From contig NZ_JAJTUT010000001.1 in assembly GCF_022399565.1 (NCBI RefSeq), positions 310,001 to 374,000 of the forward strand: a stretch of 64,000 nt of DNA, in the 5' to 3' direction. Each line of letters begins with the position of its first letter. Within the stretch, counting starts at the first letter, position 1. The translations under genes and the position numbers were made by a program. A model generated the notes under the pieces. That model saw nothing but the letters and a program-made list of their open reading frames with translations, was not told where the DNA came from and made no database searches. Of the stretch, positions 49,821 through 59,162 are shown one piece after another. Origin of the DNA: Flavobacterium algicola. GTDB taxonomy: Bacteria > Bacteroidota > Bacteroidia > Flavobacteriales > Flavobacteriaceae.

Positions 49821-52616
49821 ATGCTTAACCAAAATCCCGAACAAATAGCACGTGATAACATTGACAAGCAGATCATTGCTTGTGGATGGGTTATTCAAGA
49901 CAAGAAGAGATTCAATCTTGCGGCTGGCTTGGGTGTTGCTATTCGGGAATATCAAACGGATATTGGACCAGCTGATTACGTTTTATTTATAGATAAAAAA
50001 CCTATTGGTATAATCGAAGCCAAACGGGAAGAAGAAGGTTTACGGTTAACAACTGTTGAAGAACAGTCTTCGCAATATGCCAATGCTAAACTGCGTTTAT
50101 TAAATAACGACCCTTTGCCTTTTGTGTATGAAAGTACAGGTGAGGTGACTCGTTTTACGGATTATAGAGACCCTAAACCACGCTCTAGAAATGTATTTAC
50201 CTTTCACCGTCCAGAAACTTTTTTACAATGGTTGAGCCAAAACGAAACATTACGTGCTCGTTTGCATCATTTACCGACTTTACCTGAGGATGGTTTGCGA
50301 GATTGTCAAGTAACAGCCATTACTAATGTAGAAAAATCGTTTAAAGACCAACGACCAAAAGCCTTGATACAAATGGCAACAGGTTCTGGAAAAACCTTTA
50401 CGGCAATTACTTTTATCTACCGCCTGCTTAAATATGCCAAAGCCAAACGTATTTTATTTTTGGTAGACACCAAAAACTTAGGTGAACAAGCCGAAAGTGA
50501 ATTTCGTGCTTTTACCGCCAATGAAGACAATAGATTATTTACCGAATTATATGGGGTTACCCGTTTAAACAGTTCGTTTATTCCTAATGATTCCCAAGTT
50601 TATATTAGTACCATTCAAAGGATGTATTCTATATTAAAAGAAACAGACTTGGATGAAAGTGCCGAAGAAGAAAACCCAAATGAAAGTCAATTTATTCCAA
50701 AAGACCCCGTTCCAGTTGGGTACAATGAAAAAGTGCCGATTGAGTTTTTTGATTTTGTAGTTATTGACGAATGTCATCGTAGTATTTACAATCTTTGGAA
50801 ACAAGTATTGGATTATTTTGATGTGTTTCAAATTGGATTGACGGCAACTCCTGACAACCGAACCTTTGGTTATTTTAATCAAAATCTAGTTTGTGATTAC
50901 GGTTATGAAAAAGCCGTTATTGATGGGGTTCTTGTTCCTTATAATGTATTTACCATTGAAACCGAAATCACCAAAAACGGTAGCGTGATTAAAATGGGGG
51001 AAAAAGTAGACAAACGAGAACGATTGACCCGAAAAAAGTTTTGGGAAGCGCTCGATGAAGACGAAGTTTATAGTGGTAAAAAGTTGGATAGCGATATTGT
51101 CAACCCTAGTACAATTCGAACGATTATCAAAGCTACCAAAGATAATTTACCCGCTATGTTTCCTGATCGTTTTGCAGGGACTTGTCGGGACTTGTCGGAC
51201 TTTGAAGTTCCAAAGATGTTGATTTTTGCCAAAACCGATAGCCATGCTGAAGACATTATTGATATTGTTCGCGAGGAATTTGGCGAAGAAAATAAATTTT
51301 GCAAAAAAATAACCTATCGTTCTGAGGAAGACCCCAAAAGCGTTTTGCAACAATTTCGAAATGATTACTACCCACGTATTGCGGTAACGGTAGATATGAT
51401 TGCCACTGGAACAGACATCAGACCTTTGGAAATATTGTTGTTCATGCGTGACGTAAAAAGTCGCAGCTACTATGAACAAATGAAAGGACGTGGTACACGC
51501 ACCTGCTCTGTTGAGGAATTGAAAGCCAAAGGAACGCCGACCGCCAAATTCAGCAAAGACCATTTTGTGATTATTGATGCTATTGGCGTGGAGCAATCTC
51601 AAAAAACAGATAGCCGACCTTTGGAAAAAGCACCAGGCGTTTCTCTAAAAGATGTAATTACAAGCGTGGCTATGGGTAACACCTCCGAAGAGATGTTGAG
51701 TACGCTTGCCAACCGTTTGATTCGCTTAGAGAAACAGCTGCAAGACAAACATAAAATAGAATTCACCGAAAAAGCCAATGATTTAACCATCAACCAAGTG
51801 GTGAAAAAGTTATTAAACGCTCATGATCCAGATATTGTTGAAAGTCATACCACAAAAGTCAAAGGAGAAATGCGTGGTTTCCCTCCAATTGAAATTGAAA
51901 AAGCGATTGAAAAAGCAACCCAACAAATGATTGATGATGCTGTAGCGGTTTTTAACAATCCCGACCTACGTGATTTTGTGATTGATATTCGTAAAAAACT
52001 GGATCAAATTATAGATGTTGTCAATATTGATACGATTACCAATATTGGCTGGGTAAAAGACCACGATGTGGCAAGTTCCGCAATACTAGAAGATTTTAAA
52101 ACGTGGATCGAAAACCACAAAGACGAAATCACGGCTTTGCAAATTTTCTATGCCCAAGACTACCGCCACCGTACTTTTACCTACAAAATGATAAAAGACC
52201 TAAGCGAAAAACTAAAAACCGAGAAACCATTATTAGCCCCCTTAGCCGTTTGGCGTGCTTATGAACAATTAGAAAAAACAAATGGTTCGACCAAAAGTGA
52301 ACTGATTGCCTTGGTTTCCCTAATACGCCGTGTGGTGGGAATTGATGCTACTTTAACTAGCTACGACAAAACGGTAGACAAAAATTTCCAAGATTGGGTG
52401 TTCAAGAAACAAGCGGGAAATTTGAAATTTAGCGAACCTCAAATGCAATGGTTGCGGATGATGAAAGACTATGTAGCCAATAGTTTCTGTATAGACCGTG
52501 ACGATTTTGACCTAAGCCCTTTTAATGCCGAAGGCGGTTTGAGTAAAATGTGGCAGTTGTTTGGCGAAGAAACAGATGCGATTATTAATGAATTAAATGC
52601 GGTTTTAGCTGCTTAA
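49821..52616 (+). CDS. hsdR: type I restriction endonuclease subunit R
   Basis: A 931-residue HsdR. The N-terminal nuclease domain has the PD-(D/E)xK core: D52 in GPADYVLF and E66-A-K68 in IGIIEAKREEEG. The motor has Walker A MATGSGKTF (about 186-193), DECH at 316-319 (VIDECHRSIYN), GLTATPDNRTFGYF, and motif VI RSYYEQMKGRGTRTC. The C-terminal part (from about 700) fits the HsdR helical region of the EcoEI type. All catalytic elements are intact. It cuts unmethylated DNA after ATP-driven translocation, with HsdM and HsdS. Here it is the first gene of the locus and lies far from hsdM. Confidence 0.95.
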   Translation: MLNQNPEQIARDNIDKQIIACGWVIQDKKRFNLAAGLGVAIREYQTDIGPADYVLFIDKKPIGIIEAKREEEGLRLTTVEEQSSQYANAKLRLLNNDPLPFVYESTGEVTRFTDYRDPKPRSRNVFTFHRPETFLQWLSQNETLRARLHHLPTLPEDGLRDCQVTAITNVEKSFKDQRPKALIQMATGSGKTFTAITFIYRLLKYAKAKRILFLVDTKNLGEQAESEFRAFTANEDNRLFTELYGVTRLNSSFIPNDSQVYISTIQRMYSILKETDLDESAEEENPNESQFIPKDPVPVGYNEKVPIEFFDFVVIDECHRSIYNLWKQVLDYFDVFQIGLTATPDNRTFGYFNQNLVCDYGYEKAVIDGVLVPYNVFTIETEITKNGSVIKMGEKVDKRERLTRKKFWEALDEDEVYSGKKLDSDIVNPSTIRTIIKATKDNLPAMFPDRFAGTCRDLSDFEVPKMLIFAKTDSHAEDIIDIVREEFGEENKFCKKITYRSEEDPKSVLQQFRNDYYPRIAVTVDMIATGTDIRPLEILLFMRDVKSRSYYEQMKGRGTRTCSVEELKAKGTPTAKFSKDHFVIIDAIGVEQSQKTDSRPLEKAPGVSLKDVITSVAMGNTSEEMLSTLANRLIRLEKQLQDKHKIEFTEKANDLTINQVVKKLLNAHDPDIVESHTTKVKGEMRGFPPIEIEKAIEKATQQMIDDAVAVFNNPDLRDFVIDIRKKLDQIIDVVNIDTITNIGWVKDHDVASSAILEDFKTWIENHKDEITALQIFYAQDYRHRTFTYKMIKDLSEKLKTEKPLLAPLAVWRAYEQLEKTNGSTKSELIALVSLIRRVVGIDATLTSYDKTVDKNFQDWVFKKQAGNLKFSEPQMQWLRMMKDYVANSFCIDRDDFDLSPFNAEGGLSKMWQLFGEETDAIINELNAVLAA

Positions 52617-52625
52617 AAAAGTATA

Positions 52626-52910
52626 ATGATGAAGTTAGAAAAACCAACTGCCAAGATAAAATTTGGGATCGATTATTTTATTCAAGAACAATGTGATGTG
52701 CTAAATATGACCAATGTTTCATTCTTAGATAAATTAGCTATTTCAAATGAACAGTATCATACAATCATAGAAAGTAAAGAAGTAATAACAGAAGAATTTG
52801 CTACAAAATTAGCTACGCTTTTTACAACTTCTACCCATTACTGGATAAATATTGATCAGAATTACAAAGATTGGCTTAAAAAAAGAATTGATAATTGCTT
52901 AACTAATTAA
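52626..52910 (+). CDS. HigA-like antitoxin / XRE-type HTH protein, orphan
   Basis: A 94-residue protein. The C-terminal half, VITEEFATKLATLFTTSTHYWINIDQNYKDWL, matches the HigA group's ...[27 protein letters not shown] pattern closely. The N-terminal HTH part (FIQEQCDVLNMTNVSFLDKLAISNEQYHTIIESKE) fits but is less typical. No HigB toxin gene lies next to it. It starts 9 nt after hsdR stops and ends 2 nt before the transposase gene starts, so it is cotranscribed with hsdR. It may regulate the locus or be what remains of a toxin-antitoxin pair. Confidence 0.7.
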   Translation: MMKLEKPTAKIKFGIDYFIQEQCDVLNMTNVSFLDKLAISNEQYHTIIESKEVITEEFATKLATLFTTSTHYWINIDQNYKDWLKKRIDNCLTN

Positions 52911-52912
52911 AA

Positions 52913-53374
52913 ATGGCAAATACCTATCATCAACTATACGTTCAAGCAGTTTTTGCAGTCAAATACCGTGATGCGGTAATAAACAAAGAATGGAAAACAA
53001 CTCTCATGGGAGTTATTGGAACTTTAATAAATGAAACAGGTTGTAAAACCATAATTGTCAACGGAGTTGAAGACCACGTACATTGTTTAATAGGATTAAA
53101 ACCAGTAGTTTCAATATCTGAATTGATGAAAACAGTAAAAGCAAAATCATCTAAATATATAAACGACCATAATTTAACAAAAAACAGATTTGAATGGCAA
53201 GAAGGATATGGCGTGTTTTCATATAGTCATTCCCAAATTGATAATGTGTATAAATACATTGTGAATCAAGAAAACCACCATAAAAAACAATCATTTAAAG
53301 AAGAATATTTAGCTTTTTTGAATAAGTTTGAAGTCCCTTATGATGAAAGGTATATTTTTGAGGATTTAAAATGA
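52913..53374 (+). CDS. IS200-like / REP-associated tyrosine transposase (RAYT)
   Basis: A 153-residue Y1 transposase. The HUH motif is H55-V-H57 (GVEDHVHCLIGL), and the catalytic Tyr is Y115 in VYKYIVNQENHH, with conserved downstream histidines. GYGVFSYSHSQI is typical of this group. The protein is full length (IS200/RAYT about 140-160). No IS200 ends are obvious, but a palindrome array follows directly (53425-53747), as is usual for RAYTs, which mobilise REP sequences by single-strand steps. It starts 3 nt after the HigA-like gene stops and lies inside the type I locus. Confidence 0.88.
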   Translation: MANTYHQLYVQAVFAVKYRDAVINKEWKTTLMGVIGTLINETGCKTIIVNGVEDHVHCLIGLKPVVSISELMKTVKAKSSKYINDHNLTKNRFEWQEGYGVFSYSHSQIDNVYKYIVNQENHHKKQSFKEEYLAFLNKFEVPYDERYIFEDLK

Positions 53375-53747: not shown

Positions 53748-53906
53748 GATACATATAAGATAATAAATTTTAAAATAAGGACTAGGTTTTATTTGACAGC
53801 ATACTATTTTTTTAATACAAAATTAGCCGTAAACCCCAGTATTATTGAGATTTCTTATTTGACGGTTATTTGACTATAACCCAAACTTATTAACAATTTG
53901 ACTTTA

Positions 53907-55109
53907 ATGACACATAATAAATTACCGAAGGATTGGAAATTGTTCAATTTAATAGAAATAATGAACAATCATGACGGAAAAAGAAAACCAATTAGTAAAG
54001 TAGTTAGATCAAAAAGAAAGGGAGAATATAGATATTATGGCGCAACTGAAATTGTAGACTATATTGATGATTATCTATTTGACGGTGAATATCTCTTAAT
54101 AGGCGAAGATGGTGCAAATTTATTAACCAAGAATAAGGATTTAGCTTTTATTGTGTCAGGTAAGTTTTGGGTAAACAATCATGCCCATGTTTTATCATCA
54201 AAAGAAATTACAACAAATAAATATGTTTGTAATTATTTTAATTCACTAAATATATCACAGTTTGTAACAGGTACAGCGCAACCAAAACTTACTCAAGGAA
54301 ATTTAAATAAAATTAAAATTCCTCTCCCCCCACTAGAAACCCAACACGTTATAGTCTCCAAAATAGAAGAACTATTTAGCGAGTTAGACAAAGGCATCGA
54401 GGATTTAAAAACCGCGCAACTGCAACTCAAAACCTATAGACAAAGTGTGTTGAAATATGCTTTTGAAGGGAAGTTGACGAATGAGAATGTGAAGGATGGA
54501 GTTTTGCCGAAGGGGTGGGAAATAGTTACTATTGGAGATGTGTGTCATAATGTTGAATATGGATCAGGAACTAAATCAAAAAAAGAAGGTAAAATTCCTG
54601 TTCTAAGAATGGGAAACATCCAAAATGGAATATTTGATTGGAGTGATTTAGTTTATTCGGATGATGACTTAGAAATTGAAAAGTACTTATTAAAAAAAAA
54701 TGATGTGCTCTTTAATAGAACAAATAGCGCTGAATTAGTTGGTAAAACTGCAATTTACAAAGGAGAAAGACCTGCAATATTTGCTGGATATTTAATTAGA
54801 TTAAACAGAAAAGAGGAACTGATTGATTCAGCATTTATCACATATTATTTAAATTCTAAAGAAGCTAAAAAATATGGAAATTCGGTTAGGAGTTTTGGTG
54901 TTAATCAATCAAATATAAATGGTACAAAATTAAAAAGCTATCCATTATCACTACCACCAATCAAAGAACAACACCAAATCGTTCAAGAAATCGAAAGCCG
55001 TTTGAGTGTTGCGGATAAAATGGAGGAAAGTATTGTGCAAAGTTTGCTACAAGCAGAGTCGTTGAGACAGAGTATATTGAAAAAGTCGTTTAGTGGGGAG
55101 TTGGTTTAA
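53907..55109 (+). CDS. hsdS: type I restriction enzyme specificity subunit S
   Basis: A 400-residue HsdS from ATG 53907 (a TTG 9 nt earlier opens the frame). The two target-recognition domains and both conserved spacers are present. TRD1 covers about 1-145 and ends in IPLPPLETQHVIVSKIEELFSELDKGIEDLKTAQLQLKTYRQSVLKYAFEGKLT. TRD2 (about 205-355) ends in LPPIKEQHQIVQEIESRLSVADKMEESIVQSLLQAESLRQSILKKSFSGELV. The paired coiled-coil spacers set the distance between the half-sites. It is complete, so a bipartite target is expected. No second inverted hsdS nearby. Confidence 0.93.
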   Translation: MTHNKLPKDWKLFNLIEIMNNHDGKRKPISKVVRSKRKGEYRYYGATEIVDYIDDYLFDGEYLLIGEDGANLLTKNKDLAFIVSGKFWVNNHAHVLSSKEITTNKYVCNYFNSLNISQFVTGTAQPKLTQGNLNKIKIPLPPLETQHVIVSKIEELFSELDKGIEDLKTAQLQLKTYRQSVLKYAFEGKLTNENVKDGVLPKGWEIVTIGDVCHNVEYGSGTKSKKEGKIPVLRMGNIQNGIFDWSDLVYSDDDLEIEKYLLKKNDVLFNRTNSAELVGKTAIYKGERPAIFAGYLIRLNRKEELIDSAFITYYLNSKEAKKYGNSVRSFGVNQSNINGTKLKSYPLSLPPIKEQHQIVQEIESRLSVADKMEESIVQSLLQAESLRQSILKKSFSGELV

Positions 55110-55126
55110 AGTAAAAAAACAAAATT

Positions 55127-55884
55127 ATGATAGATAAAATGATTCGTTGCAAAAACATTGATAATATCAATAAAATAGAAAGTATTCGAGATTGGTTTTA
55201 TGAGTGTCCTCCCAAAGCGAACTTAAAGCATTGGAGAGATGGACGAAGTGCAAAAGAAACAGCTAAACATTGGTTGCATACAATACCACAACCTTTTAAA
55301 GATATACTTAAAGCGCAACAACTAAAATATAAATTTTGTTTTCCTGAATATGAATCAGATTTGACTCCTATCGAAATGGTAGAAATCATGATTTATTGTT
55401 ATTGGCTGAAGATAAAGATTTGAATAAAATTGTTATTTCAATTGAATCAAAAGTTGATGAGTCATTTGGAGAAACAGTATCAAAACAAATAGCTGCGGCA
55501 GAAAAAAAGAAATTAGAAAAACCAACCTCAAAAGCAGTTAACAGAATTAATGAATTGAGAATTGTTCTTTTTGGAGAATTAAATGATAATCAACTTGATT
55601 TAAGATATCAATTGCTAACTGCTGTAGCGGGTACAATAGCCGAAGCTAAAAAGCAAGGAGCAAAATCTGCTTATTTCTTAGTTCAAACCTTTATTGAAAA
55701 AGTAAATAATAAACATATAAAGAATCAAGATGATTTAAATAAATTTTTGAGTGTTTTTACTAAAGGAAAAGATGCTAATATTGAAAATAATGAGCTATTA
55801 GGACCTTTTAAAATAGAAACTAATAATGAGTATTTATCCAGTGACATTGATTTGTGGATTGGAAAATATGAGATTGAGATATAA
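55127..55884 (+). pseudogene. frameshifted nuclease-like gene (DUF6946-like)
   Basis: Two overlapping frames make up one family. The first (55127-55423) begins SIRDWFYECPPKANLKHWRDGRSAKETAKHWL; the second, from about 55380 to 55884, contains the expected continuation RNHDLLLLAEDKD, IVISIESKVDESFGETV and LRYQLLTAVAGTIAEAKKQGAKSAYFLVQTF, ending LGPFKIETNN. Joining needs one missing base near 55375-55380. The E-x-K with a nearby D resembles a PD-(D/E)xK nuclease core; the family name is from memory. If the shift is real, the protein is broken. Confidence 0.65.
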
Positions 55885-55888
55885 ATCT

Positions 55889-56389
55889 ATGGAATATACA
55901 TTTGAAAAATATGATTTAAAACTCATTGATAATGAAGACAACACTTGCAAAACAGCATTATTACCAAATAATGGAATTGCACTACTAAAAGAACGCCGTA
56001 AACTATATATTATTCATTTTGAAAATGATTTTTTATATGTTGGAGAAGCATATACTTCAATTAAAACTAGATTTCAGAGAGGATGCACTTCTTTTAATTA
56101 TTTCATAAGGAATAAAAAGACTCGTGGCGGTTATAAAGGTTACAAATGGTTAGACAAAGTAAATAATCTAAAACGAAATTTGACTGTTAGCGTCGTTGTC
56201 TTTAATGAAGAATATGATTCTAAAAGACATTTCATAGAAGCTATTGAAGGAGAATTGGTTTATTTAATTCGCCAAAAGTCTGGCTATTGGCCAAAGTTTC
56301 AGAATGAGATTCATTTTAGTAATTGTGATGGAGCAAAGGAGATTGCAGAAGATATAAGGAAAAAGGTTTTTAATAATGAGTTGGTTTAA
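55889..56389 (+). CDS. GIY-YIG-like nuclease domain protein
   Basis: A 166-residue protein from ATG 55889, just 4 nt after the previous stop. KLYIIHFENDFLYVGEAYTSIKTRFQRG (about 40-67) has the spacing of a GIY-YIG domain: I-Y-x...x-Y-V-G, then a Lys/Arg (KTRF). The later IEAIEGELVYLIRQKSGYWPKFQNEIHF gives the Glu expected for the metal. GIY is LYI here and YIG is YVG, both tolerated in this superfamily. A single small nuclease domain without partner domains suggests an accessory of the surrounding restriction locus. The identification is moderate. Confidence 0.55.
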   Translation: MEYTFEKYDLKLIDNEDNTCKTALLPNNGIALLKERRKLYIIHFENDFLYVGEAYTSIKTRFQRGCTSFNYFIRNKKTRGGYKGYKWLDKVNNLKRNLTVSVVVFNEEYDSKRHFIEAIEGELVYLIRQKSGYWPKFQNEIHFSNCDGAKEIAEDIRKKVFNNELV

Positions 56390-56400
56390 AAATTATACAA

Positions 56401-57672
56401 ATGAATAATAAAAAACTAAATGAAGTTATAGAAGAAGTTATAAGAAAATCTAAATACAATTTAGATATACAACAAATCCATAATATCATTACAACCAAAA
56501 ATCATAAGACTACATTTGCTGATAATTTAGAACCAACAACAAATCAAATACTTGCTATAATAAAAAAAAACTCTGATATTTTCGGAATTGAAAAAAATCT
56601 TATATTCTTAAATAAAAAGGAAAAGAGATTATTACGAATAACTTCCAATAAAAATGATTGGGAAACTCCTAGCGGGCATCGATGGTCATTAAAAAGACAA
56701 GGTGACTCTAATACAGCTTATGAAAATCAATATGGTTTTGGAGCTGAAGAATGGTTGTTTAACTTAAGATATAATATTGATGGATTTCAGTATGGATATA
56801 TTAAAGGGTTATCCGAAGTAAATAATATAAAATTTATTGATTTAGCATATCTTTTTACTATTGACTCTCATACAAAAGAACGCAAATTAATTGCTGAAAT
56901 TAAAGATATTGAGTTATTAAATAAAGACCATTTAGAACCTAAAGTAATTGAAGTTTTTAAAAATTTCAAAAATGAAATGACTAATGAATTGTTAGATGTA
57001 AATGCTGATGTGGCAAATTTCAATCTAATGGAATTCTATCCAATAGTTAGATTCAGAATGGAAGATGCTGAAATATTTGACACTCCACATCTAATAAATG
57101 AATTAAAAAACGGTAACAAATATAATAGATTCAAGGCTTATATAATAGATGACAATCTTGAATCATTAATTCAAGATAAATTACTAAAAAGACCTTTTAT
57201 ATTTGAACCTGGCAAAAGGAAAAACATTAATAGCGCTCATACACGAAGTACGAAATCAAGGAAATGTATTATTGAAGGCTTACATGCTAAGATAATTGAT
57301 GATTTAGAAGTACATCTGAAACCTGATTTTAGCATACGAAAAGGTAATATTTCTATCGAAAAAACACTTTTTGGCGATAGTATTGCCGATCTAGTTGTTA
57401 AAAACAGTGATTTATCTTTCACTATTTTTGAAGTTAAAACTTCTCATAATACTCGAAATAATGTTCGAGAAGCAATAGGACAACTTTTAGATTATTCTTT
57501 GTGGTACGATAATTTTAAAATAAAAGAACTGGTCATTGTTGCTCCAAGTGTAATTACAAATGAGCAATTAGAATATATAAAACGATTAAAATCAAATTTA
57601 AAATTAAAGATTAAATATATACAATACTGTGCTTTTAATAAAGAAGCCAAATTTATAGAAATAATAAAATGA
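56401..57672 (+). CDS. HTH + central domain + PD-(D/E)xK-type nuclease, candidate restriction component
   Basis: A 423-residue protein, cytoplasmic. Residues 1-70 look like a HARE-HTH/winged-helix domain (LNEVIEEVIRKSKYNLDIQQIHNIITT). Residues 88-180 hold WETPSGHRWSL, YGFGAEEWLF (111-120) and IDGFQYGYI (126-134), a conserved-looking motif I cannot name. The end is a PD-(D/E)xK-type core: D330 in GDSIAD, E344-V-K346 in TIFEVKTSH, and REAIGQLLDYSLW (356-368), the helix-plus-Gln frequent in restriction nucleases. It starts 11 nt after the GIY-YIG gene and its stop overlaps hsdM (ATGA). A base-modification-dependent or type IV-like nuclease is plausible, unproven. Confidence 0.6.
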   Translation: MNNKKLNEVIEEVIRKSKYNLDIQQIHNIITTKNHKTTFADNLEPTTNQILAIIKKNSDIFGIEKNLIFLNKKEKRLLRITSNKNDWETPSGHRWSLKRQGDSNTAYENQYGFGAEEWLFNLRYNIDGFQYGYIKGLSEVNNIKFIDLAYLFTIDSHTKERKLIAEIKDIELLNKDHLEPKVIEVFKNFKNEMTNELLDVNADVANFNLMEFYPIVRFRMEDAEIFDTPHLINELKNGNKYNRFKAYIIDDNLESLIQDKLLKRPFIFEPGKRKNINSAHTRSTKSRKCIIEGLHAKIIDDLEVHLKPDFSIRKGNISIEKTLFGDSIADLVVKNSDLSFTIFEVKTSHNTRNNVREAIGQLLDYSLWYDNFKIKELVIVAPSVITNEQLEYIKRLKSNLKLKIKYIQYCAFNKEAKFIEIIK

Positions 57673-59162
57673 GCAAAGATAATTCAGCAAACACATCTAG
57701 TATAGTTAGTAAAGTATGGGCATTTTGTCAAACCCTAAGAGACGATGGTGTGGGCTATGGTGACTATTTAGAGCAATTAACCTATTTGTTATTCCTGAAA
57801 ATGGCAGACGAATACAGCAAACCGCCACACAATAGACCCATGGCAATCCCTACGGACTTCGCTTGGGACACCTTGATAACCAAAAGTGGTACAGAGCTAG
57901 AGTCGCATTACAACATCATGCTACGAGAACTCGCCAAAGAAAAAGGCATCTTGGGGCAAATATTTGTCAAAAGCCAAAACAAAATACAAGATCCCGCCAA
58001 GTTATATAAACTGATTGCGCTTATCAATGCCGAGAACTGGATTCTGATGGGCGTGAAAGACAAAGGCGATATTTACGAAGGCTTACTAGAAAAAAATGCC
58101 GAGGATACTAAAAGTGGAGCTGGTCAGTACTTCACCCCTCGCCCATTAATCAAGGCGATGGTAGAATGTTTGCGTCCAGAACCTTTAAAAACTATTGCCG
58201 ATCCTGCTTGTGGTACGGGAGGTTTTTTCCTTGCGGCTTATGATTGGCTGGTAGATAATCGAGATTTAGACAAAGAAGCCAAGCAATTCTTGAAATACGA
58301 AACCTTTTTTGGTAACGAGATTGTGGCAAGCACCAGACGACTGGCGTTGATGAATTTGTTTTTGCATAACATAGGAGATATCGATTCGGATAATTTTATT
58401 TCGCCTAATGACTCCTTGATTACGGATGCAGGAACACGCTTCGATTATATCTTGGCCAATCCGCCTTTTGGTAAAAAAAGCAGCATGACCTTCACCAATG
58501 AAGCAGGTGAACAAGAAAAAGAAGAGTTGACCTATAACCGTCAGGATTTTTGGGTAACAACGAGCAACAAACAGTTGAACTTTGTGCAACACATTCGCAC
58601 GATGCTAAAAACCACAGGTCAAGCTGCGGTTGTATTGCCTGATAATGTTTTGTTTGAAGGTGGTGTGGGTGAAACCGTGCGTAAAAAACTATTAGAAACT
58701 ATGGATTTACATACCATTTTACGTTTACCAACAGGTATTTTCTATGCCAATGGAGTAAAAGCCAACGTTTTGTTCTTTGATGGAAAACCATCCAGTAAAG
58801 AAGCTTGGACCAAAGAAACTTGGGTATATGATTATAGAACGAATGTGCATCACACGTTAAAGAAAAATCCATTAAAACTAAGTGATTTAAACGATTTTAT
58901 ACAACTGTATAATCCAGAGAACCGACACAAACGAAAAGAAACTTATAATGCCGAAAGCAATCCAGAAGGTCGTTGGAGAACATTTACCTACGATGAAATC
59001 ATGGCTCGCGACAAAACGAGTTTAGACATCACTTGGTTAAAAGATAAATCCTTAGCCGATTTGGATAACCTACCCGATCCTGATGTTTTGGCATTGGAAA
59101 TTGTAGAAAATATAGAAGCTAGTTTAGCTAGTTTTAGGGCGATTATTGCTAGTTTAAAGTAG
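57669..59162 (+). CDS. hsdM: type I restriction-modification N6-adenine methyltransferase subunit M
   Basis: A 497-residue HsdM. The N-terminal HsdM_N part (SSIVSKVWAFCQTLRDDGVGYGDYLEQLTYLLFLKMADEYS) is typical. The SAM motif is ADPACGTGGFF (177-187) and the catalytic N-P-P-F is N254-P-P-F257 (ILANPPFGKK), class of N6-adenine methylases. The C-terminal region follows with no break. It methylates the target of HsdS and is required for self-protection. Its start codon overlaps the stop of the upstream nuclease gene (ATGA), so both are translated together. M is last in the order, unusual for this kind of locus. Confidence 0.95.
   Translation: MSKDNSANTSSIVSKVWAFCQTLRDDGVGYGDYLEQLTYLLFLKMADEYSKPPHNRPMAIPTDFAWDTLITKSGTELESHYNIMLRELAKEKGILGQIFVKSQNKIQDPAKLYKLIALINAENWILMGVKDKGDIYEGLLEKNAEDTKSGAGQYFTPRPLIKAMVECLRPEPLKTIADPACGTGGFFLAAYDWLVDNRDLDKEAKQFLKYETFFGNEIVASTRRLALMNLFLHNIGDIDSDNFISPNDSLITDAGTRFDYILANPPFGKKSSMTFTNEAGEQEKEELTYNRQDFWVTTSNKQLNFVQHIRTMLKTTGQAAVVLPDNVLFEGGVGETVRKKLLETMDLHTILRLPTGIFYANGVKANVLFFDGKPSSKEAWTKETWVYDYRTNVHHTLKKNPLKLSDLNDFIQLYNPENRHKRKETYNAESNPEGRWRTFTYDEIMARDKTSLDITWLKDKSLADLDNLPDPDVLALEIVENIEASLASFRAIIASLK

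Follow-up and report, generated by a model that had tools for sequence, protein, structure and literature searches.

A candidate modification-dependent nuclease with a PUA-like central domain in a type I restriction operon of Flavobacterium algicola

Restriction systems that act on modified DNA can be found inside type I operons, as described for TgvAB, a type IV system of the GmrSD family that lies inside a type I operon on Vibrio cholerae VPI-2 (PMC11411939). According to that report, TgvAB protected against phages with hypermodified cytosines, HsdR activity was not needed for this protection, and its authors suggest that TgvAB and the type I system provide complementary cover against modified and unmodified phages. 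Other modification-dependent nucleases, including VcaM4I and further EVE-HNH and EVE-PD(D/E)XK proteins, are described in two sources, in which the swapping of the sensor among nuclease types appears as the pattern of EVE-type modification-dependent enzymes (PMC7897488, PMC7641849). In one of these sources, the N-terminal reader of Thermococcus gammatolerans McrB (6p0f) is YTH-like and reads m6A in DNA (PMC7641849). Finally, DarTG2 is embedded in a type I operon together with RptR, at a site which the authors regard as a potential recombination hotspot (PMC12255303).

The present analysis concerns a protein encoded in the window, i.e., the whole stretch of 64,000 nucleotides of Flavobacterium algicola DNA that was analysed, and this protein is on balance probably a type IV-like, modification-dependent DNA nuclease that is carried as defence cargo in a type I operon, a reading drawn from sequence, structural models, and analogy. 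By analogy, TgvAB would be its nearest tested precedent: both place modification-dependent restriction genes, predicted ones in the case of the candidate, inside an hsd operon. TgvAB consists of two proteins with DUF262 and DUF1524, whereas the candidate is a single protein in which an unrelated putative reader is joined to a PD-(D/E)xK domain. DarTG2 likewise represents defence genes inside an hsd operon but is a toxin-antitoxin cargo located between hsdS and hsdR, whereas the candidate lies between hsdS and hsdM.

The operon in the window comprises, in order, hsdR, a small ORF with a Y1 transposase gene, hsdS, a split DUF6946 gene, a GIY-YIG-like ORF, the candidate gene, and hsdM (Table 1). 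The candidate ORF is intact and starts with ATG (ORF list), and a whole-genome search located the gene at a single place in its own genome, with no internal stop. Several features read from the letters in a preliminary description were recovered, including the motifs YGFGAEEWLF (residues 111-120) and IDGFQYGYI (126-134), the nuclease residues D330 and E344-V-K346 followed by REAIGQLLDY (356-365), and the overlap of the candidate TGA with the hsdM ATG as ATGA at 57669-57672. The hsd genes and the candidate cargo would be expressed from one transcript. The protein had no match in Pfam, PADLOC, or NCBIfam, and comparison with the sequences of solved structures in the PDB returned a single chance-level row (E 0.22).

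Table 1. Coordinates in the window of the operon genes, the cargo slot, and the domains of the candidate protein.
Feature	Coordinates	Strand	Basis
hsdR	49821-52616	+	EcoEI_R_C 9.7e-40, HSDR_N 5.5e-7
hsdS	53898-55109	+	Methylase_S 1.6e-46
Cargo slot hsdS-hsdM	55110-57668		composition profile; other contents in related operons
DUF6946 cargo gene, split over two frames	55127-55884	+	PF22187 5e-7 and 6.3e-19 in two overlapping ORFs
GIY-YIG-like ORF, next cargo gene upstream of candidate	55826-56389	+	ORF; motif by eye
Candidate modification-dependent nuclease, 423 aa	56401-57672	+	ORF; AF2 model, 82 aligned relatives
N-terminal helical part, residues 1-73	56401-56619	+	helices in model
Putative central reader domain, residues 70-254, PUA-superfamily-like (EVE/YTH/ASCH-type) fold	56608-57162	+	model alone; VIA-align
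Predicted PD-(D/E)xK nuclease domain, about residues 263-423; D330, E344, K346, Q361, Y365	57187-57669	+	invariant residues; VIA-align
hsdM, overlaps candidate by ATGA	57669-59162	+	N6_Mtase 2.3e-66, HsdM_N 5.6e-13

Some of the neighbouring genes deserve mention in their own right. The region between hsdR and hsdS (52626-53374) holds the small ORF, which perhaps encodes an HTH protein, and the transposase gene, which is of the Y1/IS200 type. The DUF6946 gene is read as two pieces in overlapping frames (55127-55423 and 55396-55884), probably reflecting a one-base shift or a sequencing error, and unbroken DUF6946 homologues were found between hsdS and the candidate's relative at two other loci (L018 and L011). 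Read by eye, these homologues display an E-x-K motif after H-D-L, and DUF6946 may therefore be a PD-(D/E)xK nuclease itself. The GIY-YIG-like ORF had no family match in Pfam or NCBIfam; elsewhere, the candidate's relative at L077 is followed by a DUF4357 protein that weakly matches GIY-YIG, and an annotated GIY-YIG protein is encoded near another relative (L006).

Scanning of one genome per species confirmed 92 loci coding for relatives of the candidate, in hosts belonging to Bacteroidota, Pseudomonadota, Myxococcota, Chloroflexota, Planctomycetota, and others, and 5 further loci were found in a viral collection; the scan finds only sequences with the conserved motif and the best 80 of the 92 loci were kept, so that the prevalence is a lower bound. 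Of the 299 genomes in the window's family, 5 matched the full protein (E <= 0.001), the window's own genome among them and one of the matches being weak and confined to the C-terminus, and the central domain was matched in 4 of the 395 genomes of the phylum, again its own included; the candidate gene is sparse across family and phylum. The INPHARED phage records contained no match to the window protein (E up to 0.1) or to the centre of the relative at L035 (E up to 0.001). Alignment of 83 rows (the window protein and 82 relatives), from which three loci coding for the centre without a PD-(D/E)xK nuclease were excluded (L088, L090, and L095, also left out of the tree), revealed ten invariant columns, i.e., N83, P90, G114, E116, W118, D330, E344, K346, Q361, and Y365, and the presence of catalytic-type residues and part of the EEW motif among these ten positions is beyond chance. 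The tree of the relatives was a quick one with many open forks, and several of its rows are near-copies (e.g., L061/L064 and L019/L072).

The full-length model of the candidate (AF2) had a mean pLDDT of 89.1, and its C-terminal part displays the alpha-beta-beta-beta-alpha-beta order of the PD-(D/E)xK core (DSSP: H294-309, E317-319, E331-334, E339-345, H351-368, and E373-381), with D330 adjoining one strand and E344-x-K346 ending the next. Residues D330, E344, K346, Q361, and Y365 were invariant in 83/83 rows. Comparison of residues 262-423 by VIA-align gave Can2 as the best among the 50 rows listed (Z 10.1, rmsd 3.7, 136 aligned), with further nuclease matches to Card1 (Z 9.1), the Pyrococcus repair endonuclease 2vld (Z 8.9), PaqCI (Z 8.6), and EndoMS (Z 8.0), where a Z near 8 can mean merely a common arrangement. 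Because the fold scores and the invariant D, E-x-K, and Q-x3-Y come together, the C-terminus can firmly be predicted to be a PD-(D/E)xK nuclease domain, which bears out the core assigned to this part in the preliminary description. Weak nuclease-family matches to SfsA (3/83 rows) and pPIWI_RE_REase (2/83) fit this fold and were kept out of the evidence.

The centre of the protein (residues 70-254) was modelled alone, since Foldseek with the full-length model was filled by nuclease matches, and with 86 aligned rows this model reached a pLDDT of 94.0 and a pTM of 0.88. Foldseek with the centre model yielded a best E of 0.51, which is non-significant, the first three matches being 2p5d, a YTH domain, and THYN1. 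VIA-align was applied to the 843 chains ranked top by Foldseek, 116 of which had a Z of 2 or more, and all of the 50 rows listed were PUA-superfamily proteins with Z 4.4-5.9 (46 of them assigned by title or papers), the best match among those listed having a Z of 5.9 (rmsd 3.6, 118 aligned). They include YTH domains, ASCH domains, EVE/DUF55 proteins with THYN1, the T. gammatolerans McrB reader, and the EVE-HNH enzyme VcaM4I (6yex, Z 4.5); 2p5d, 2hd9, 1wmm, and 2ar1, the titles of which do not name the family, are the four entries which we take to be EVE proteins. The weight of this assignment lies in the uniformity of the list, as each Z alone is low, and the centre is best described as having a PUA-superfamily-like fold with modest scores, a Z below 8 leaving it open to doubt. 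The model and fold comparison that the preliminary description had proposed for this then unnamed domain thus listed exclusively EVE/YTH/ASCH-type matches, and the centre did not fold as an unrelated enzyme.

By sequence, the centre falls outside the named reader families. None of the 86 members searched matched the Pfam families EVE, YTH, ASCH, SRA, or DCD (0/86, E up to 0.1), which argues that the centre is not one of these by sequence; the 20 Pfam families that the members did match contain no such reader, the centre belongs to no Pfam family, and the profile of the EVE domain proper (PF01878) was unmatched. Alignment of the centre with EVE and with ASCH by hhalign gave no signal, as did the positive control of EVE with ASCH, so that this comparison lacks power. 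Conserved in the centre are N83, W87, W118, and Y131, together with a motif of its own, G-x-G-x-E-E-W. VcaM4I and the other EVE nucleases resemble the candidate in the fusion of a PUA-superfamily reader, or in the candidate a PUA-like one, to a nuclease, but the candidate differs from them in its own motif and in a reader that Pfam does not recognise. The McrB reader of T. gammatolerans likewise resembles the centre (Z 4.7, rmsd 4.2, 130 aligned) and acts as the restriction specificity module of McrB, where it is fused to a GTP-driven motor, whereas the candidate comes without a motor domain.

Residues 1-70 form helices only in the model (block pLDDT 56-82), and residues 1-73 had no match to an HTH family in Pfam (E up to 5). 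Consequently, of the type IV-like layout envisaged in the preliminary description, the reader and nuclease domains hold in view of the invariant residues and the fold matches, while its N-terminal HTH is unsupported. Relatives have other N-terminal parts, or none, in place of that of the candidate. The N-termini of the relatives at L016, L035, L008, and L009 display a second unnamed domain with a motif like GGxxEFQFNI ... RxGLAF, which is common to long relatives and to proteins that have no central reader and is perhaps another reader module.

The modules of the candidate also appear in other combinations. In a Vibrio gigantis plasmid protein the centre precedes an HNH_2 nuclease domain, on a contig of the viral collection it precedes an HNH nuclease domain (PF01844 9.1e-5), and a Mesorhizobium plasmid protein annotated as an HNH endonuclease starts with a segment that resembles the centre more weakly (31.6% identity over 62% of the L095 centre, E 3e-4). 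Conversely, the PD-(D/E)xK nuclease occurs with a different N-terminal domain at L008 and L009. At L090 a gene of 200 aa encodes the centre by itself; it is flanked by hsdS and by a gene of 613 aa with a DGQQR motif, to which a DUF262 protein and SspE are the closest among solved structures. The order over L090:3156-7424 is hsdS, the free-standing reader gene, the DUF262/SspE-like gene, and hsdM, and in this operon the reader may be a subunit of its own. As judged from these sequences, the centre is not tied to the PD-(D/E)xK nuclease and is joined to HNH nucleases in three proteins, a reader-plus-nuclease layout with an exchangeable reader by which type IV enzymes are recognised.

These combinations bear on the possibility that the candidate is an RNA-directed or abortive-infection nuclease, of which the PUA-like centre would read RNA and the nuclease would kill the infected cell. 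RNA is a further ligand of PUA-like domains, YTH domains (m6A RNA readers) and ASCH domains make up many of the centre's fold matches, and some of the best matches of the nuclease domain are Can2 and Card1, which act broadly on nucleic acids; moreover, PrrC is an example of an anticodon nuclease that is embedded in an hsd operon. The pairing of the centre with HNH nucleases and its position next to a DUF262-type gene are nevertheless typical of DNA restriction, and the nuclease domain also resembles the DNA enzymes EndoMS and PaqCI, so that we consider an RNA target unlikely.

The slot between hsdS and hsdM differs in composition from most of the operon, its core having a GC content of about 26-29%, compared with about 36-40% for most of hsdR and hsdM, 30-32% for hsdS, and 32-34% outside the operon (composition profile). 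Close relatives of the window's hsdM (E <= 1e-100, 58-72% identical) were found six times besides the window in 249 family genomes, and one of the six operons carries the candidate (G049). In the other five the slot holds nothing (L147), a GmrSD type IV enzyme, i.e., a member of the family to which TgvAB belongs, with a 195-aa gene (L148; GmrSD_N 2.6e-35, GmrSD_C 7.2e-16), a Y1 transposase (L149), a 480-aa NOV_C protein that is another cargo candidate (L146:2683-4125), or an AAA ATPase with a 293-aa gene, which is Septu-like by size and order only (L150). Because of the low GC content of the slot and its varied contents in related operons, the candidate gene looks like exchangeable cargo, and an accepted family of type IV enzymes can stand in its place.

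Further cargo accompanies the relatives of the candidate. Two Septu-size genes lie between hsdS and the relative, with hsdM downstream, at L041, L043, L049, L061, L064, L086, and L089, and with hsdM upstream at L050 and L077. Four of these nine pairs (L041, L049, L061, and L077) were compared with PADLOC, by which those of L041 and L049 are clear Septu pairs (PtuA 4.6e-165 and 4.7e-163; PtuB 1.3e-67 and 1.1e-62). The other two have PtuA-like ATPases (2.4e-50 for L061 and 6.9e-38 for L077), and their partner genes matched first the candidate-system models PDC-M01B and PDC-M62B, and PtuB weakly (1.1e-8 and 9.5e-5). At L020:2973-6433, AAA ATPase and subtilase genes are located 12 nt upstream of the relative (IetAS-type defence, IetS 3.5e-38).

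Counted over all 80 genome loci, short flanks included, hsdM is located within 100 nt downstream on the same strand in 17 (in L042 as a broken gene), and 24 have at least one hsd gene on the same strand. The window's genome holds 4 N6-methylase genes, so that, by estimate, roughly one gene in a thousand would have such a neighbour by chance. At L042:4233-7636 the start of hsdM is duplicated, with an 87-aa hsdM piece, a 535-aa ORF, and further hsdM pieces, as if an insertion had interrupted the gene. On the tree, hsd linkage remained uncalled for the 18 of 83 rows with under 3 kb of flank on a side, and 41 of the 65 callable rows (window included) had no hsd gene nearby on the same strand, as sought with profiles from this operon type by which very diverged hsd genes may be missed. 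The linkage is most simply explained by 10 changes, at least 6 when judged by well-supported branches, and 0 of 500 shuffles gave a number as low; hence, hsd linkage is clustered on the tree and yet arose or disappeared several times. For the 41 unlinked loci, 144 proteins encoded close by were compared with Pfam (proteins under 90 aa were skipped, and 4 of the remaining 148 were dropped by length or edge filters). The commonest family was GmrSD_N (3 proteins), and of the 25 of 92 families shown no methylase family accounted for more than 2 proteins, a result that speaks against a fixed methylase partner.

A balance between modification by the adjacent methylase and cutting by the candidate, which the preliminary description had suggested on the basis of the overlapping genes, finds no support in these data: the methylase has its own hsdR and hsdS, most callable rows have no hsd gene nearby, and related hsd slots hold other cargo or nothing. 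The coupling of the candidate to hsdM therefore looks like the result of cargo insertion into the operon and not like a cognate methylase-nuclease pair. The same counts weigh on the alternative of a sequence-specific restriction nuclease, either type II-like or an alternative R subunit, from which the host DNA would be protected by the neighbouring HsdM and HsdS. The start-stop overlap and the recurrence of hsdM directly downstream would suit such an enzyme, but with hsdR already present in the same operon, closely related operons in existence that have no candidate gene, the frequent absence of hsd linkage, and the scarcity of methylase families among the neighbours, we rate it as improbable. 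Finally, the candidate could be a guard that responds to inhibition or hijacking of the type I enzyme by a phage, and would thus sense HsdM/HsdS instead of a modified base. This alternative would agree with the recurrent hsd embedding that was gained or lost several times, but it is very improbable in view of the many unlinked rows and of the PUA-like centre, which would be the simpler sensor.

The preferred reading of the candidate as a modification-dependent DNA nuclease is built on its layout, the invariant residues, the PUA-like matches, module swapping, the recurrent place in hsd operons, and the exchangeable nature of the cargo, as these appear from sequence or models. Against it stand the modest fold scores of the centre, the lack of a Pfam reader match in all 86 members, the RNA binding of PUA-like domains, the many relatives that have no hsd linkage, and the negative result with the INPHARED phage records. 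According to this reading, the central PUA-like domain would bind a modified base in invading DNA, and the C-terminal PD-(D/E)xK domain would then cut the bound DNA. HsdRMS would handle unmodified DNA, and the cargo nuclease would handle the modified DNA that type I enzymes cannot cut, resulting in an anti-phage action of the candidate, for which the defence role is suggested by the context. Because HsdM puts N6-methyladenine on the host DNA, the reader should ignore this mark in HsdM's own sequence context.

An embedded modification-dependent enzyme that combines a PUA-type reader with a nuclease would be of an already known kind, and the new part would be the reader family, which is absent from the libraries searched. 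Literature searches for defence genes embedded in operons and for type IV enzymes with PUA-like domains, which covered few subscription papers and no bioRxiv preprints, gave no description of the candidate or its reader family among the papers listed, and in a search by motif strings the shortest string gave chance matches and the two longer strings were absent among the matches listed. Going further, it is an even call whether the centre represents a new class of modified-base reader, forming a branch of the PUA superfamily outside the named families, that is used as a plug-in with at least three nuclease types and has repeatedly entered a dedicated slot between hsdS and hsdM, together with Septu, DUF6946, and GmrSD-like genes. 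Modified-base readers are useful tools and explain bacterial defence against phages that disguise their DNA, and the candidate is easy to test, given its clear predicted nuclease partner and its defined site in a common operon. Moreover, the slot offers a way to find defence genes, its contents in other species being candidates. If the new reader class and the dedicated slot prove true, a single operon would combine several layers of immunity, against invaders that are unmodified, modified, or of still other kinds.
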